Shown: piece after piece, positions 32,105-63,469 of the stretch
Layout of the letters: each line of letters opens with the position of its first letter
How positions within the stretch are numbered: position 1 is the first letter of the stretch
Origin: Weissella sagaensis
GTDB lineage: Bacteria; Bacillota; Bacilli; Lactobacillales; Lactobacillaceae
Direction of reading: 5' to 3'
DNA length: 64,000 nt
NCBI RefSeq assembly: GCF_005405285.1
Contig: NZ_BJDT01000003.1
Location: 1 to 64,000 of the forward strand
The notes under the pieces: generated by a model
Told to the model about the DNA's origin: nothing
Databases searched by the model: none
The model's input: the letters and a program-made list of their open reading frames with translations, nothing else
Program-made: the position numbers and the translations under genes

Positions 32105-32492
32105 TGATGTATTGGTGGGTAATTGCGTGCAGCTTATGTTGCATGAGGAAAGTCCATGCTCGCACTAACTGTGATGTTAGTAGTGTTCGTGCTAGCTGAA
32201 AAAATAAGGCTAGGCAATTCTTGTAATTGACGGCCAGTGAAATTATCTACGGGCACTGCCTATGATTTTAGTAGCTGTTAAGGTGCCACAGTGACGAACC
32301 ATCAAAGAAATGCGATGGGTGGAACGCGGTAAACCCCACGAGCGGGCAACCCAAACTTTGGTAGGGGCGTTTGATCTAGCGAAACGAAGCGATGGTCGAG
32401 GAAACAGAAATGTTTGAGATAGATGATTACCACCAAATAGATTTTGCCAATTTTTATTTGGAACAAAACATGGCTTACAGCCAATACATTAG
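32105..32492 (+). ncRNA. rnpB: RNase P RNA, type B
   Basis: The catalytic RNA that processes tRNA 5' ends. Conserved blocks are visible: GAGGAAAGTCCATGCTCGC near the 5' end, AGTGCC-like and CACAGTGACGAA, GGAACGCGGTAAACCCC, GAGCGGGCAACCCAAA, TAGATGATTACC and GAACAAAACATGGCTTACAG near the 3' end. The P1 stem pairs GATGTATTGG at the start with CCAATACATT at the end. Position between gpsB and ypsC is the Bacillus arrangement. Confidence 0.95.
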
Positions 32493-49733: not shown

Positions 49734-49786
49734 TTAATATTGACCCGCATTAAAACCCATGTCATAATTAAATAACAATTAAATAA

Positions 49787-49877
49787 TTTACTAGGGGAGC
49801 ATTCTGCTGAGACGATTTATTATCGGACCCTTTGAACCTGTTTAGTTAGTGCTAACGAAGGAAAGTAATGGTAAAAT
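49787..49877 (+). promoter_or_regulatory. TPP riboswitch
   Basis: Thi-box elements are clear: GGGGAGC, TGCTGAGA, GACCCTTTGAACCTG, TTAGTTAGTGCTAACG and AAGGAAAGTAATGG. A short P1 pairs TTTAC with GTAAA. Upstream of thiD and followed by a terminator, so thiamine diphosphate binding should cause early termination. Confidence 0.95.
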
Positions 49878-49886
49878 GCGATTTAG

Positions 49887-56332: not shown

Positions 56333-57706
56333 TTAAACATCATCACGAACTAACCAAATTGCCAAACCCCCAATAAAGAAGGCAATTGCGGCGATAATAA
56401 ACATCTTAGCCATTGAACCACCAAGTGCTGGCAAAATCAAGAAACTAACTGAAGATGCCACAATTTGAGGAATACAAATAAAGCAGTTAAACAACCCTAG
56501 AACAATACCATCATGTTTACCATCTAATGCATTTGTCAAAATTGTAAATGGAATTGTAATTAAAGCAATCCAAGCAATTCCAAACAATGCGAAGGCAATG
56601 ATAGAAGATAGCTTAGTTGTTCCAAATGCTATCATCAAAAATCCGATACCACCTAAAATCAAACTAACTGTATATGCAGGACGCCGTGTTTTCTTAGTAA
56701 GACGTGCAAAGAATAGACCAACAATAATAGCAACAACTGAATAAACTGCTTGTACAATTCCAAACCAGTTACCAGCTTCTTGGTAACCTGCTGAAGCAGG
56801 ATCAGTTACGTGCCAAATATTTTCAGCTAAAGCACCCGTTGAATATGTCCACATATAAGGAATAGCAAACCAAACAAAGAATTCAACAATACCTAGTAAC
56901 CAAAATACCTTTGGTGCACTACGCAAAACATTCATAATTGATGCTTTTTCATTTTGTTCTTCTTCAGAAATGTTGTGGTACTTAGCCATTTCTTCAGGGG
57001 TGTACTCTTTAACATTCTTAATTGTAAAGATAGCTGATAATGCCAAGATAATTGCTGAAGCATAGAATGAAATTTTAACAGACATTGGTACTTCACCACG
57101 TGGCGCAGTATTAGCAATACCTGAAACAGTTAAGATAAATGGGAATACAAAGGCAACCAAACTACCTAAACTACCCCAAACATTTTGCATCGACCATAAC
57201 GAATTTGATTGCTTCTCATTAGCCATATCAGGAATAATCATCTTAAATGGTTGTTGAGAAACGTTTGATGCCAAATCCATAAACAACACTGTAACAGCAC
57301 CAAACCAAAGTGCTGCAGCTGATCCAAATCCAAATCCAAATGAACCAGCATTAGGCAATAGTAACATCACAATAAATGATACTAATGTACCACCAATTAG
57401 ATAAGGCATACGACGACCAAATTTTGGCAACCAAGTCTTATCAGAAAAGTACCCAACTAACGGTTGCATAATCATTCCTGCCAAAGGTGGTAGGATGAAA
57501 AAGAACCCTAAATTATTTGGATCTGCACCAATTGTTTGAAAAATACGACCCATACTTCCAGTCTGCATTGAAAAGGCAATCTGAGTTCCAAAGTATCCAA
57601 ATGTCATCATAAACATTTGTAATTTTGATAGGTCAGGTAACCGATGTTTAACAGTCTGTGACACAGTGTCTTGTGCCACATTTACATCTTTAGTTTGATT
57701 ATCCAT
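56333..57706 (-). CDS. MFS sugar transporter, SLC45/GPH-like
   Basis: The 457-residue protein has twelve helices with LQMFMMTFGYFGTQIAFSMQ, GFFFILPPLAGMIMQPLVGY, SDKTWLPKFGRRMPYLIGG and, near the end, LTNALDGKHDGIVLGLFNCF. These fit SLC45-like MFS carriers for disaccharides. With the glucosidase it probably takes up isomaltose, maltose or related sugars. It is controlled by a strong promoter with LacI-type operators at 57757-57792. AGGGGAT lies before the ATG. Confidence 0.85.
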   Translation of the reverse strand: MDNQTKDVNVAQDTVSQTVKHRLPDLSKLQMFMMTFGYFGTQIAFSMQTGSMGRIFQTIGADPNNLGFFFILPPLAGMIMQPLVGYFSDKTWLPKFGRRMPYLIGGTLVSFIVMLLLPNAGSFGFGFGSAAALWFGAVTVLFMDLASNVSQQPFKMIIPDMANEKQSNSLWSMQNVWGSLGSLVAFVFPFILTVSGIANTAPRGEVPMSVKISFYASAIILALSAIFTIKNVKEYTPEEMAKYHNISEEEQNEKASIMNVLRSAPKVFWLLGIVEFFVWFAIPYMWTYSTGALAENIWHVTDPASAGYQEAGNWFGIVQAVYSVVAIIVGLFFARLTKKTRRPAYTVSLILGGIGFLMIAFGTTKLSSIIAFALFGIAWIALITIPFTILTNALDGKHDGIVLGLFNCFICIPQIVASSVSFLILPALGGSMAKMFIIAAIAFFIGGLAIWLVRDDV

Positions 57707-57756
57707 TCGAAAATCCCCTCATATTATAAAAATCCATCAAATCTCCAAACGTTTTA

Positions 57757-57792
57757 TGCAAACGTTTACGCAATTTATTGTAAGCGTTTGCA
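57757..57792. promoter_or_regulatory. Two LacI/CcpA-type operators
   Basis: TGTAAGCGTTTGCA (57779-57792) fits the cre/LacI consensus and covers the promoter spacer. TGCAAACGTTTACG (57757-57770) is a second site 22 bases away, about two helix turns on the same face. A partial third (CAAACGTTTTAT) lies at 57746. The divergent LacI protein or CcpA are the likely ligands. Confidence 0.75.
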
Positions 57793-57805
57793 TAAAAAAT
57801 GTCAA
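57777..57805 (-). promoter_or_regulatory. Promoter of the sugar transporter/glucosidase operon
   Basis: On the minus strand TTGACA (57805-57800) and TACAAT (57782-57777) are separated by 17 bases. The operator TGTAAGCGTTTGCA lies between and over them. Confidence 0.8.
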
Positions 57806-57903
57806 CTAGTGATTTAAAATAAAAAATAGCAGCACTTAAACGACTTTTGCTATCAAGTCAGTGTATAATAATACCAATAGCATAGTTAATATAGGAGTTA
57901 TAT

Positions 57904-58905
57904 ATGGTAGTTACATTAAAAGACGTCGCCCAGGCGGCAAATTTATCAGTTGCATCTGTATCAAGAATTCTCACTAATCGTGGGCGTTACAGTGAAACTA
58001 CTGCAAAGCGAGTTCGGGAAATTGCCCGAGAAATGGGATATTTTAAAAATCAAAGTGCAGCTGACTTGGCTAGTAAAAAAAGTCGAGCTGTTGGCGTTGT
58101 TGTACCATTAATTCATACAAATTTCGCAGATGAAATTATTAAAGGATTATATGAAGCAACTGTTGCATCCGGATATGAATTATTAATAACATATCTGGAT
58201 GATAACGAAGCGCATCAAACGCAAGTTTTTAACACATTATTAACTCGGCAAGTGGGGGCTGTATTCTTATTATCACTAGATATTCCGGCATGGATGATGG
58301 CGCAATTAACGACACAAAGTATTCCAATCATTTCATTGACCACAATATTAAATGAACATATTTCTGCAGTTACTTCAAATGAATTTATTGTGATGGATAC
58401 ACTAGTAGATCATTTAGTTTCAAAGGGGCACACTAATATTGCACTAATTGGGGATACAAAATTAACAACAAATATTTCAAGTGTTCGTCGACGCAATTTT
58501 ATTGAATCTATGAAACAACACCAATTAACAACTGAAAATGCTTTTTTCTATGGTAATGACCACAGTTATGAAACGGGGTATCAAAGTGTGACAGAGGGGT
58601 ATGATATTAATGCATTACCATTTACTGCAGCAATAGCAACGGCCGATCTTGTTGGTGTCGGCATTGTAAATGCAATGAATGATGCAAATAAAAGTATTCC
58701 AAATAGTTTATCAGTTGTGACAATTGATGGTCTCCAACTAACTGAAATGAGTCGACCACAACTAACGACCATTCAACAAAATTTTGCGGAAATTGGTCGC
58801 ATTGCTATGAATCTTTTTATTGAAAATAGTATCGACCAGCAGCAACAAATTATTTATGTTCCTACTAAATTAATTGAACGTGATAGTGTCTTAGACATTA
58901 AGTAA
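57904..58905 (+). CDS. LacI family transcriptional regulator
   Basis: The 333-residue repressor has a LacI helix-turn-helix (TLKDVAQAANLSVASVSRIL), hinge-type helix NQSAADLASKKSRAVGVVVP, and a periplasmic-binding-like effector domain ending in LTTIQQNFAEIGRIAMNLFI. It is divergent from the transporter/glucosidase operon and most likely represses it through the operators between them. TATAGGAG precedes the ATG; TATAAT at 57864-57869 is its likely -10. Confidence 0.9.
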   Translation: MVVTLKDVAQAANLSVASVSRILTNRGRYSETTAKRVREIAREMGYFKNQSAADLASKKSRAVGVVVPLIHTNFADEIIKGLYEATVASGYELLITYLDDNEAHQTQVFNTLLTRQVGAVFLLSLDIPAWMMAQLTTQSIPIISLTTILNEHISAVTSNEFIVMDTLVDHLVSKGHTNIALIGDTKLTTNISSVRRRNFIESMKQHQLTTENAFFYGNDHSYETGYQSVTEGYDINALPFTAAIATADLVGVGIVNAMNDANKSIPNSLSVVTIDGLQLTEMSRPQLTTIQQNFAEIGRIAMNLFIENSIDQQQQIIYVPTKLIERDSVLDIK

Positions 58906-60613: not shown

Positions 60614-61249
60614 TTATACCGTCGTTGTTCTAATTCTTAAACGTCTTGTGGCACGTTTAAATAGATAATTTGGTGACCGTTGACTTTTAACGGCATGTGT
60701 CAATGGTTTACTGTTAATCTCATCGATCACTTGATTAACTTGTTGTTGTGTGATCTTACTAAACACTGTCTCCTTAGGAAAATACCACCTGGCGCGTAAG
60801 TTACGATTAGTGCGTTCATTGGTAGCACGTTCATAGGGTGCATAAGTATTGGCAACATATAAATCACCTAAGTAACACAAAATAAACTTCACCACACGAC
60901 TATTCACAAATTCATGACCATTATCACATGTGATTGATTTCACATGCCGCCCATACTGCCGTTCAAATTGACTAAGCACTCTAACGATTTCCAAAGCGCT
61001 TTTGGATTTCGCTTTAATGGCCACTTGATAACGTGCTTTACGTTCAACAAAAGTAATTAATAAGGATCCCTGATGATTTTTACTCTCAACACCATCCATT
61101 TCCCAATGCCCAAAAGCGCGACGTTTATTAATTGACGTTGGTCGTTCATTGATACTTCGTCGTTGTCCAATATAATGACTTGTTTCTTCTGGTGTTACAA
61201 GCGGTCGAAAAGAACGATACTGCCGATGATATTGTTTTGCTATTACATG
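60614..61249 (-). pseudogene. IS30-family transposase, C-terminal fragment
   Basis: From 61249 down, the frame reads VIAKQYHRQYRSFRPLVTPE, then RAFGHWEMDGVES, ITCDNGHEFVN, YAPYERATNERTNRNLRARW and PLTHAVKSQRSPNYLFKR: the DDE domain of IS30 transposases (E-M-D, D-N-G-H-E-F, the E-R-x-x-N-E-R-x-N-R motif with catalytic Glu). A TAA stands directly upstream, and the N-terminal helix-turn-helix half is missing. No terminal inverted repeat pair was found. Non-functional by itself. Confidence 0.8.
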
Positions 61250-61522: not shown

Positions 61523-61615
61523 CTACTTCTTGTGATGATTGTCGATATACGTCAACAACATCAACAAGAAGTTTCCAAATAGTATCATCAATGATACTGC
61601 TTGGAAAACAGACAT
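61523..61615 (-). CDS. Holin-like type I toxin peptide
   Basis: The 30-residue peptide begins MSVFQAVSLMILFGNF and continues with a hydrophobic helix, LLTYID, and a basic HHKK end. The pattern MSV-x-x-A-x-S-L-M and a single membrane helix with L-T-Y-I/L-D is that of the 'putative holin-like toxin' family in Firmicutes. A site AAAGGCGGG lies upstream. An extended -10 (TGTTATAAT) at about 61731-61723 could drive it. Its likely action is membrane damage unless checked by the antisense RNA. It is too short for usual gene callers. Confidence 0.75.
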   Translation of the reverse strand: MSVFQAVSLMILFGNFLLMLLTYIDNHHKK

Positions 61616-61650
61616 GTTTAGCTAACCCGCCTTTCTTTAGATTTTGAAGT

Positions 61651-61668
61651 CTACGAACATTCGTTCAT
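61651..61668 (-). CDS. Five-codon leader ORF upstream of the toxin
   Basis: ATG AAC GAA TGT TCG TAG is preceded by GAAAGGAG, a better ribosome site than that of the toxin. It may influence toxin translation or ribosome loading in the leader. It could also be a by-product of conserved leader structure. Confidence 0.35.
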   Translation of the reverse strand: MNECS

Positions 61669-61722
61669 AGGCACCAACTCCTTTCGAATAGGATTAGCCA
61701 CCGCCTTTAAACCTGTACAGTT

Positions 61723-61731
61723 ATTATAACA
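61723..61731 (-). promoter_or_regulatory. Toxin promoter, extended -10
   Basis: On the minus strand TGTTATAAT, an extended -10; no -35 at the usual distance. A transcript would have a leader of about 100 bases before the toxin ATG. Confidence 0.5.
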
Positions 61732-61782
61732 TAAAAAAATGCCACAAGTGCTGTCATAATAGCATTTGTGGCATTTTTTGTA
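61732..61782. terminator. Symmetric hairpin upstream of the toxin locus
   Basis: AAAAAATGCCACAA pairs with TTGTGGCATTTTTT. It closes the toxin locus and may insulate it from leftward transcription. Confidence 0.75.
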
Positions 61783-61839: not shown

Positions 61840-61995
61840 TTATCTGGGTAACGCTCTAGTTGCACTTTCTAATGCCTCATCTATTTCATCACGTTGTTTC
61901 TCCGTAATGTCTCCTTTTGGATTATTTATTATTTTATGGTATGACAGACTTAGAAAGTACCGAATGAAAATAAAAATAGGCCAGCAAAATCGCTA
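61840..61995 (-). pseudogene. Short unassigned frame, possible gene remnant
   Basis: A frame without ATG reads FIRYFLSLSYHKIINNPKGD, then ITEKQRDEIDEALESATRAL and stops. The helix plus acidic tail looks protein-like, but the start is cut by a TAG and no ribosome site is visible. The stretch between the toxin locus and fusB otherwise holds nothing I can name. Confidence 0.2.
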
Positions 61996-62026
61996 GCCGT
62001 GGTTGAATTATAAATTAATTATTACA

Positions 62027-62671
62027 CTATTGTTTTTTAATTGTTGTCACAAATTTATCAAAAAGAGCACGTTCATGTAGATTACGATTATATTGTAAAC
62101 TATCAACACAAATATAGTTACCTTTTTTTGTATATCTACCATCCCCATGGCGTTTATTTAATGCTAAAAACATTGTTACGTTTTCTTCATGCTGACAAAT
62201 TGAACAATATCCCCGTATAACTGGACTTGAAACATCACCAACTAACCCTAAAAGCTGGTCTTGTTCATAATACAATATATATTTACGTCGTGTCGCAATA
62301 TCATTCCAAGCAAAAAAAGTATAATCACGCCAATCCACTACCGTTAAATCAGGTAGCGTCAATTTCTTAGTCTTGCGGAATGTTTGTTGTATTTGTTTTT
62401 TGTCTGGTGCTACAAAAGGCACGACAAACTCTTGTAATGTTTTGACCATTGTTTCAGTCGCACGGTGTCGCAATCGTCGATCCATGATATTAGAAATTAA
62501 CTGCGTAATGGCAGGGTCATTACCAGGAACTGTATCGTGGATTTCCTCGGCAGCTAAATCTTGAAGGACACCAATTGTCCGTAAGTCATTGACTGATTGG
62601 TATTGATGTACCAAGTTATAGACAATGTCATTAATCTTCATATACTGATAGGGTTGTATTGTTAGTGTCAT
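62027..62671 (-). CDS. FusB/FusC-family EF-G-binding protein
   Basis: Members bind EF-G and free it from the ribosome, which rescues translation from fusidic acid. The 214-residue protein has an N-terminal helical bundle with YQSVNDLRTIGVLQDLAAEE and a C-terminal treble-clef region (GYCSICQHEENVTMF, RHGDGRYTKKGNYICVDSLQ). The zinc finger in the family has four Cys; here the last (in D-S-x-x-C-N) is Tyr, leaving three. Translation is likely controlled by a leader peptide and attenuator upstream. AAAGGA at 62679-62685 is its ribosome site. Confidence 0.85.
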   Translation of the reverse strand: MTLTIQPYQYMKINDIVYNLVHQYQSVNDLRTIGVLQDLAAEEIHDTVPGNDPAITQLISNIMDRRLRHRATETMVKTLQEFVVPFVAPDKKQIQQTFRKTKKLTLPDLTVVDWRDYTFFAWNDIATRRKYILYYEQDQLLGLVGDVSSPVIRGYCSICQHEENVTMFLALNKRHGDGRYTKKGNYICVDSLQYNRNLHERALFDKFVTTIKKQ

Positions 62672-62678
62672 AAATTTT

Positions 62679-62762
62679 TCCTTTCATTTCTCATAATTAG
62701 AATCATTAGAAAGAAAGTTTTTTTCTAGTGATTCGATTAATAGTTATTAACCTTGTCACTAG
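62679..62762 (-). promoter_or_regulatory. Four-segment translational attenuator of the FusB-like gene
   Basis: On the minus-strand RNA: segment 1 CTAGTGA (62762-62756, inside the leader peptide) pairs with segment 2 TCACTAG (62731-62725). Segment 3 TTTCTAATGATTC (62712-62700) can pair with segment 2 as GAATCACTAGAAA (12 of 13). CTTTC-TTTCT (62717-62708) can instead pair with segment 4 AGAAATGAAAGG (62691-62680), which hides the ribosome site. This is the erm-type switch: 1:2 plus 3:4 is off, 2:3 is on. Confidence 0.75.
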
Positions 62763-62781
62763 CAGATACTATACGTACCAT
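62737..62781 (-). CDS. Leader peptide of the FusB-like gene
   Basis: A 14-codon frame MVRIVSASDKVNNY with TAGGAGG eight bases before its ATG, one of the best ribosome sites in the window. It ends 65 bases before the FusB-like ATG. Segment 1 of the attenuator lies in codons 7-9. Stalling of a ribosome here would free segment 2. The peptide itself may have no other role. Confidence 0.75.
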   Translation of the reverse strand: MVRIVSASDKVNNY

Positions 62782-62914
62782 CTGACCACCTCCTAGAGCT
62801 ACCCTAGTTTATCAAACCTTTTAAAAAAAACAAATAAGCCTTATATTGCTTACTGATACCCTAGAAAACAGGATAGCACGGTAACTAGCTACCACTAATC
62901 ATAACCTTTATATG

Positions 62915-63469
62915 CTATAAGTTAGTATTGTTTAAATTATAGAAATAAACTTTTTTATCTGCCCATTCACCAAATTCAAACATAAATTTTTCACGAGTTG
63001 TTTCAAATGAAAAGCCTAATTTTTTTAGTAATTCCTGAGATGGTGTATTTGGGATACTAACATGTGCTTCAATTCTATGAAATCCTAATTGATTAGATGC
63101 TAACTTCAAAATAGCTGTTAATGCTTCAAAAGCATACCCTTTTCGCCATAATTGATTATGAATAAAATAACCAATTTCACCCCAATTCATATTCGCTCTG
63201 GCAAGTGTTGCAATATCAATCATACCAATATGATGTTGCGTTTTTTTATCAAAAATAGCAAAAATATAAGTGTCGTCTGCCTGCCTTAATGTATCATGCT
63301 TTTGAACCAGCTCATTAAACCATTCTTGCGTACAAATACTCATATCTAATAAACCTTCATCAAAGGGATTTTGTGACGGTTGCCGTTGCGAAAACCCCTT
63401 GAACCAACTCTCATAGTCGGTTGTTCTTAATGGCCTAATAATCAATCTATCTGTAGAAATTTCTATCAT
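62915..63469 (-). CDS. GNAT acetyltransferase, RimJ/RimL-like
   Basis: The 184-residue protein has TDRLIIRPLRTTDYESWF, HHIGMIDIATLARANMNWGE, IGYFIHNQLWRKGYAFEALT (acetyl-CoA loop) and HRIEAHVSIPNTPSQELLKK. It is of the RimJ/RimL type that acetylates N-terminal amines of proteins; some members act on small molecules. No clear ribosome site precedes the first ATG. No obvious link to neighbours. Confidence 0.85.
   Translation of the reverse strand: MIEISTDRLIIRPLRTTDYESWFKGFSQRQPSQNPFDEGLLDMSICTQEWFNELVQKHDTLRQADDTYIFAIFDKKTQHHIGMIDIATLARANMNWGEIGYFIHNQLWRKGYAFEALTAILKLASNQLGFHRIEAHVSIPNTPSQELLKKLGFSFETTREKFMFEFGEWADKKVYFYNLNNTNL

Follow-up and report, generated by a model that had tools for sequence, protein, structure and literature searches.

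The window that we analysed, 64,000 nucleotides of contig NZ_BJDT01000003.1 of Weissella sagaensis (positions 1 to 64,000), belongs to a 1.93-Mb genome and carries, on the minus strand towards its far end, a gene for a FusB-like protein preceded by a short leader reading frame. The features of leader and gene are, in the order in which they would be transcribed:

62806..62814, minus strand: putative extended -10 promoter element of the leader transcript, TGATAAACT, seen by eye only
62789..62794, minus strand: leader Shine-Dalgarno (SD) sequence AGGAGG, read directly (SD score 12.0)
62737..62781, minus strand: leader ORF of 14 codons, MVRIVSASDKVNNY, with its ATG at 62781 and its stop ending at 62737, read directly and matched by related M[IV]RxVS leaders
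62765..62779, minus strand: stem 0, GGTAC (62779-62775) with GTATC (62769-62765), starting at the G of the leader ATG
62756..62762, minus strand: segment 1, CTAGTGA, inside leader codons 7-9, read directly and found by the stem-chain search
62746..62752, minus strand: 5' arm of the inner helix of 1:2, GGTTAAT, from the minimum free energy (MFE) fold and the alignment
62735..62741, minus strand: 3' arm of the inner helix of 1:2, ATTAATC, from the MFE fold and the alignment
62722..62734, minus strand: segment 2, GAATCACTAGAAA, of which TCACTAG (62731-62725) pairs with segment 1, from direct reading, alignment and models
62700..62717, minus strand: segment 3, of which CTTTCTTTCT (62717-62708) pairs with segment 4 and TTTCTAATGATTC (62712-62700) with segment 2
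62678..62691, minus strand: segment 4, which holds the SD of the fusB-like gene, GAAAGGA (62685-62679), from direct reading, alignment and models
62027..62671, minus strand: gene for a FusB/FusC-family EF-G-binding protein of 214 aa, from Pfam, NCBIfam and alignment with the FusB structure
61979..61998, minus strand: intrinsic terminator 3' of the gene, from a terminator scan

The 14-codon leader ORF and its near-perfect AGGAGG, described in an earlier note on this DNA, are present letter for letter (62781-62737 and 62794-62789). Segment 4 can be read as AGAAATGAAAG (62691-62681) or, in the ungapped register, as GAAAGGAA (62685-62678). A sigma-70 consensus scan did not detect the -10 element at 62806..62814; a similar TG-N-TAxACT stands in the same place before the leaders of the nine most similar homologues. 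The leader has been conserved together with the gene: a block of about 62012-62835 aligns with W. hellenica (84%) and with three other Weissella species (76%), whereas the neighbouring purD is common only to W. hellenica within the 4.6-kb stretches compared.

The protein scores above cut-off for both Pfam PF07299 and PF16571, and S. aureus FusB, whose structure is known, aligns with its residues 3-208 (4.8e-46). Its nearest FusB-like relatives among the best 80 of 84 loci, at 83-85% identity, are those of Weissella hellenica, W. fangxianensis, W. paramesenteroides and W. thailandensis. NCBIfam returned near full-length matches to FusF, FusB, FusD and FusC (E from 5.6e-53 for fusF to 6.7e-40), but the cut-offs for the named alleles fusB, fusC, fusD and fusF were not reached (137-180 bits against 375-450), and the protein also departs from these families in keeping only three of the four zinc-ligand cysteines. 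Four cysteines are reported to hold zinc in the FusB family (PMC3352095). Of the corresponding CXXC and CX5C ligands, C156, C159 and C188 are present, and residue 194, which by its spacing is the last of the four, is Tyr where the other 11 members of a 12-member alignment have Cys. Apart from this the reading frame is undamaged, and some relatives retain all four cysteines; the window's copy may be impaired. The description of the product as an EF-G-binding protein of FusB type is borne out by both Pfam domains, but with one zinc ligand missing its part in rescue, by which it would bind EF-G and free it from fusidic acid, rests on homology and may be incomplete in this strain.

Given a leader of this kind, we surveyed its occurrence before other FusB homologues, using the best 80 of 84 loci, 54 of which are from Lactobacillales, some of them belonging to different strains of a single species. 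At 47 of these 54 Lactobacillales loci we found a leader of 13-24 codons that has a strong SD and begins 99-125 nt upstream of the gene; the SD-score threshold, 10.5, was chosen after the leaders had been inspected. Seven loci failed: in L043 and L047 an MxRxVS-like leader starts with GTG or TTG, L071 seems to have decayed, L084 matches only in part, and no leader was seen in L045, L058 and L096. The L071 leader, from Enterococcus viikkiensis, is of SSCIVR type, is cut short by an early stop and lacks a good start. Of the 26 loci in the same best 80 that lie outside Lactobacillales, 8 passed, all of them Sporosarcina with a longer, different peptide. By eye, these Sporosarcina leaders (L081-L083, L086-L088, L093 and L094) and those of L141, L152 and L153, with about 30 codons and often HAK plus LCMG or LYG, have a segment 1 that can pair with 2 or 3, which is another switch layout.

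In a class-wide survey PF07299 matched in 158 of 398 genomes, and a strong-SD leader was present in 3 of the 70 regions inspected (the 30 best-scoring loci and 40 hand-picked for spread). Five of six loci of one genus, which may be the staphylococci (L177, L178 and L180-L182), have leaders like MLHKNATLLIQSVRLT with SD scores of 9.7-10.4, slightly below the threshold. Elsewhere in class Bacilli, the FusB homologues of L197-L199, L207 and L216 are preceded by leader-like ORFs whose ribosome sites are weaker and whose peptides include CSFARK- or SCKA-like stretches. FusB matches are patchy, occurring in 35 of 301 Lactobacillaceae genomes.

The leader peptide had been singled out as unlike known erm leaders. 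It does differ from those of ermC and cat-86, but it is no orphan, with M[IV]RxVS leaders in five genera besides Weissella. Every one of the ten leaders of an alignment selected by protein identity of at least 46% (A1) carries R, V and S at codons 3, 5 and 6. These three codons are likewise invariant in class A, a set of 19 leaders (L040 was omitted as near-identical to L039) that was chosen by motif, so that the invariance is partly by construction. In class A the arginine is written with three codons and the serine with four, the V5 codon is always GTA, and codon 4 specifies eight amino acids. Codon usage at R and S, set against the variable codon 4, leans towards a role for the peptide.

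We folded the minus-strand RNA from 62800 to 62660, a check that the earlier note had proposed, and obtained an MFE of -33.1 kcal/mol against a shuffle mean of -21.81, with none of 200 shuffles as stable. The MFE structure contains 1:2, which consists of 7 bp and the inner 7-bp helix GGTTAAT/ATTAATC, and 3:4; the alternative 2:3 has 12 of 13 bp. A stem-chain search for three exclusive stems ending on the gene's SD returned CTAGTGA/TCACTAG, GAATCACTAGAAA/TTTCTAATGATTC and TTTCTTTC/GAAAGGAA, which recovers the segments already proposed to form mutually exclusive 1:2 (7 bp), 2:3 (12 of 13) and 3:4 pairs, with a score equalled by none of 300 dinucleotide shuffles. The parts and the exclusive pairings 1:2, 2:3 and 3:4 before the fusB-like gene are thus real. 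On the further claim that 3:4 covers the gene's ribosome site the results are divided: 3:4, which takes in the SD, has a probability of 0.99, but only 5 of the 15 nucleotides from SD to start codon are paired in the MFE structure, so that the start codon itself is not occluded. Rfam 15 contains no family that reaches its gathering score at the leader; at a relaxed threshold there were four chance-level matches.

Exclusive hairpins of this kind resemble transcriptional attenuators, and a hairpin that terminated transcription before the gene would be another way to arrive at them. Against this, the scan of 61900-63000 found no terminator-like site between leader and gene, its sole hit being the one at 61979..61998 (1 against 0.3 in shuffles), and we consider transcription attenuation very improbable.

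The stems were also compared with the rest of the genome. Among 180 own-genome upstream regions of at least 100 nt, taken from 384 kb, the window's triple ranks fourth, with three control regions surpassing it. The top-ranked triple belongs to a sugar-transporter gene whose upstream palindrome resembles a LacI-type operator; stems alone are therefore insufficient to define an attenuator. A short ORF with a strong SD stands before 3 of 303 own-genome genes, the fusB-like gene among them; one of the other two is absent from the 12 best triples listed, and the second, with an intergenic distance of 68 nt, lay outside the triple test. When the triple test, which uses ungapped stems, was applied to 31 leaders, 16 passed at no more than 5% of shuffles and 15 failed, the failures including the class A relatives L023, L024 and L047 as well as fusB of the staphylococcal plasmid pUB101 (143/300). 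In some of the leaders that passed, for example L025, the stems found are not the homologous ones.

To model a ribosome stalled on the leader, pairing was forbidden over a stretch reaching 14 nt upstream and 15 nt downstream of the first P-site nucleotide. The free RNA of the window gave 0.99 for 1:2, 0.99 for 3:4 and 0.00 for 2:3 in this pairing model. When the P site held codon 4, 5 or 6, 2:3 rose to 0.67, 0.81 and 0.79 and 3:4 fell to 0.31, 0.17 and 0.18, and the opening cost of the gene's ribosome binding site (RBS) fell by about 4, 3 and 2 kcal/mol, respectively. At codons 7-10, 2:3 was just 0.03-0.24 because segment 2 pairs with the 5' end of the leader, and it was 0.44-0.78 when that end was masked as well, as by a trailing ribosome; at codon 11 it was 0.79, or 0.43 with the 5' end masked. 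At codons 1, 2 and 12-14, 3:4 stayed at or above 0.95. By these codon-by-codon values the switch would need a stall at I4-V5-S6, and the modelled stall site coincides with the conserved V5-S6. In silico, then, a stall on the leader is predicted to free the gene's ribosome site.

As a control we compared the stall gain, taken as the mean over codons 6 and 8, with that of shuffled leaders. The window's gain was reached by 1 of 100 shuffles, and gain and initial cost jointly by none of 100. Across 31 leaders the gain was reached by at most 5 of 100 shuffles in 20, and by none of 100 in both pUB101 fusB and a Listeria homologue. The 11 that failed (shuffles out of 100 in brackets) are L022 (9), L038 (25), L030 (65), L046 (92), L101 (10), L034 (6), L035 (19), L042 (19), L011 (6), L014 (13) and L093 (79); L022, L030, L038 and L046 are class A relatives, and L093, of Sporosarcina type, had passed the triple test (10/300). 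In MFE structures with codon 7 stalled, 2:3, counted as formed when at least 5 nt of segment 2 pair, was present in 20 of 28 leaders and missing in the window, L024, L043, L029, L034, L068, L069 and L011.

Within the genome itself the energetics stand out less. The window's RBS opening cost is reached by 88 of 179 other genes, and cost and stall gain together are equalled by 17 of 179 own-genome upstream regions. We had considered the stall energetics as a stand-alone proof and rejected them as such on account of these 17 regions. The stall model shows that the switch can work in principle, yet not that it is special, and the case for an attenuator rests for that reason on conservation.

Covariation in homologous leaders had been named beforehand as a test of the proposal, and was probed in the ten homologues most similar in protein (at least 46% identity, five genera). 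Taken together, stem 0, 1:2 and 3:4 had 93.7% of their cells paired, against 91.8% with the 3' letters redealt and 37-54% with the partners slid by 1-3 columns. Six cells were changed on both sides against 2.0 in shuffles (0/500), and weaker measures gave 4 pairs changed on both sides against 1.8 (29/500) and 42/500 for pair types. The inner helix of 1:2 has 98.6% of its cells paired in the ten-sequence alignment, with two pairs changed on both sides. Given the tool's own warning that relatedness alone can exceed such shuffles, the covariation of 1:2 and 3:4 appears modest. The outcome favours the proposal for these two helices, with no corresponding signal for 2:3 within class A, where 345 of 500 shuffles do as well; that helix is 87.5% paired and varies too little to judge. 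The pairings 1:2, 2:3 and 3:4 recur in other letters in Enterococcus (L043, E. songbeiensis, and L034, E. lactis), Lysinibacillus (L053) and Lactobacillaceae (L108). A second tight set, of 19 Lactobacillaceae leaders (21 prepared, 2 duplicates dropped), was too alike for covariation and was read by eye.

The both-side changes bear on whether the leader needs to be translated at all. Were the leader ORF dispensable, 3:4 might be a constitutive brake, or the conserved RNA might be bound by FusB for feedback. The 2012 structure paper has FusB binding nucleic acid for an unknown purpose and raises self-regulation of its synthesis (PMC3352095). Against such a scheme, 47 of the 54 loci from the best 80 of 84 keep the near-ideal SD, the 99-125 nt spacing and the 13-24 codons, and 1:2, a helix of consequence only where the leader is entered, changes on both sides. 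We hold it to be improbable.

The free RNAalifold consensus of the ten sequences formed stem 0 and 1:2 but not 3:4, and paired the leader SD, AGGAGGT, with segment 3. That pairing could count against the attenuator reading or could represent a second layer of control, in which leader translation is gated too and the resting RNA closes the leader besides, or instead of, the gene. We nevertheless retained 3:4 because it stands at 0.99 in the window's free ensemble and because the alignment behind the consensus is of poor quality near segment 4, and a gated leader has in our estimate only a slight chance of being correct.

A covariance model was built from the ten sequences; it extends over the first 18 nt of the gene, an aid in finding fusB genes. 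In 295 Lactobacillales genomes it gave a match in 26 at E <=0.1. Nineteen of the 20 loci returned, the window's own included, lie directly upstream of a FusB-family ORF, the exception being L176 (E = 0.015). Six further places with E of 0.022-0.094 fell outside the 20 loci, and one more match was to the opposite strand of the leader itself. On chosen loci the model matched enterococcal leaders with E down to 1.3e-10; at E up to 1 it did not match the leaders of Lactiplantibacillus L060, pUB101 or the other Weissella group, L011. On the view that the structure is a product of chance in AT-rich DNA, one would expect control regions that match the energetics (17 of 179) or have better triples (three), but hardly conservation across several genera, pairs changed on both sides and a covariance model that finds FusB genes, and we give that view practically no credence.

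Stem 0, at the start of the leader, is paired in 50 of 50 cells over ten sequences, with one pair varying between A-U and G-U. Of 71 leaders, 40, including many close relatives, have a hairpin at this place that no more than 5% of shuffles equal; the window's own (17/300) lies just outside that limit. In class A it joins codons 1-3 to codons 5-6, and in the enterococcal VSYLKE leaders and pUB101 it joins nucleotides around the start codon to codons 4-6, with both arms differing in letters. Because GTA is the sole codon at V5 and stem 0 takes in bases of codons 3 and 6, a role for the peptide and a role for the RNA are inseparable from sequence alone. Serine conservation was considered as proof of a peptide signal and rejected, as the serine codons also build the 3' arm of stem 0.

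Taken together, these data suggest that the window's leader is probably a translational attenuator of the fusB kind. The transcript, which would start just before the leader, is proposed to fold into stem 0, 1:2 and 3:4, and 3:4 would sequester the gene's SD so that little protein is made. A ribosome that merely initiates, or that stands at the end of the leader, would leave 3:4 intact. A ribosome stalled with codons 4-6 (I4, V5, S6) in its P site would mask segment 1, allowing segment 2 to pair with segment 3 and leaving segment 4 free for initiation. The likely trigger would be a compound by which EF-G is trapped on the ribosome, fusidic acid or another, since proteins of the product's family free trapped EF-G and the same plan controls S. 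aureus fusB. A promoter, a stall, an inducer and a working protein in this strain are presupposed in this scheme.

O'Neill and Chopra reportedly described the translational attenuation of pUB101 fusB in 2006, according to papers that cite them. Three papers, a review (PMC12493156) and a cryo-EM study (PMC12008383), both of 2025, and the structure paper (PMC3352095), describe pUB101 FusB as controlled by translational attenuation through fusidic acid-stalled ribosomes on the leader, and the review states that how FusB homologues are regulated is unknown (PMC12493156). The staphylococcal case is the only fusB attenuation described in those parts of the literature searched that we could consult, and that search found nothing that brings Weissella, fusidic acid and fusB together. 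The logic of the attenuator is thus already known from S. aureus; what appears new is this member and the spread of members.

The window and pUB101 fusB are alike in gene family, in a leader ORF with a strong SD, in a hairpin at the leader start (1/300 shuffles for pUB101) and in an RBS that opens under a modelled stall. They differ in that pUB101 fusB is plasmid-borne, its protein is 36% identical to that of the window and keeps the fourth zinc-ligand Cys, and its leader, MLKDITYLKLLDLEYKMLCS, is by eye nearer to the enterococcal VSYLKE leaders than to MxRxVS; it was also missed by the Weissella-type covariance model and fails the ungapped triple test. The translational attenuators of ermC and cat-86 combine the four-segment logic of 1:2, 2:3 and 3:4 with a stalled leader ribosome, and the window's leader resembles them in both respects. 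Their genes and leader peptides are different, and presumably also the drug and the step, which would be EF-G release for the window and the peptidyl transferase centre for ermC and cat-86. The earlier note's appeal to erm/cat logic can stand insofar as the attenuator logic survives shuffles, the stall model, modest covariation, recurrence in other genera and the same stall calculation on pUB101 fusB, but the nearest precedent is fusB itself, and the FusB leaders go beyond the erm/cat scheme by their leader-start hairpin and the conserved codons R3, V5 and S6.

Induction by fusidic acid is suggested by analogy with the staphylococcal gene, and the attenuator could be real with fusidic acid as no particular inducer, any slowing of early elongation, by another antibiotic or by a shortage of charged tRNA, opening the leader. 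The sequence names no drug, in the model only the position of the ribosome matters, and lactic acid bacteria of fermentations seldom encounter fusidic acid. On the other hand, 19 of the 20 leader-model loci precede FusB-family genes (with the caveat that 18 nt of the gene belong to the model), and R, V and S make a mixed set of conserved codons, in contrast to the run of a single amino acid in an amino-acid attenuator. The known member, pUB101 fusB, responds to fusidic acid (PMC12493156, PMC12008383). We regard a non-specific inducer as rather unlikely.

If an EF-G-trapping inducer is accepted, a more specific reading can be put forward tentatively, and we consider it possible though doubtful. 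FusB leaders might encode short arrest motifs that are active only with EF-G trapped, namely M[IV]RxVSS here, [ST]YLK in enterococci and S. aureus, and SSCIVRS, ASLFVRKS and SSL elsewhere, with a context-dependent fusidic acid stall near V5-S6 and the leader-start hairpin, whose 3' arm consists of the conserved serine codons, as part of the sensor. If so, FusB leaders would be natural EF-G-dependent arrest peptides, whereas fusidic acid is usually seen as stalling at any codon.

More broadly, the loci suggest for most of the Lactobacillales homologues examined a mode of regulation, that of the pUB101 fusB attenuator plan, often in other letters. If this is right, fusidic acid tolerance in Lactobacillales would look like an old, inducible trait, and the leaders would form a natural set for asking whether fusidic acid stalls at chosen codons.

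Several other features of the window were recorded. About 290 nt downstream of the fusB-like gene and on the same strand, 61545-61738 (minus) matches Rfam rli28, a Listeria sRNA family (64.4 bits against a cut-off of 45). Also downstream, an ORF at 60614-61099 (minus) has an integrase-core (rve) match slightly under the Pfam cut-off (30.5 against 32.6 bits) and is perhaps an insertion-sequence remnant. A TPP riboswitch (49783-49880, plus strand) and RNase P RNA (32111-32482, plus strand), both identified by Rfam, are ordinary. The region 57706-57904, flanked by a divergent LacI-type regulator and a sugar-transporter-like gene, contains a palindrome-like TGCAAACGCTTAC...GTAAACGTTTGCA that is likely an operator.
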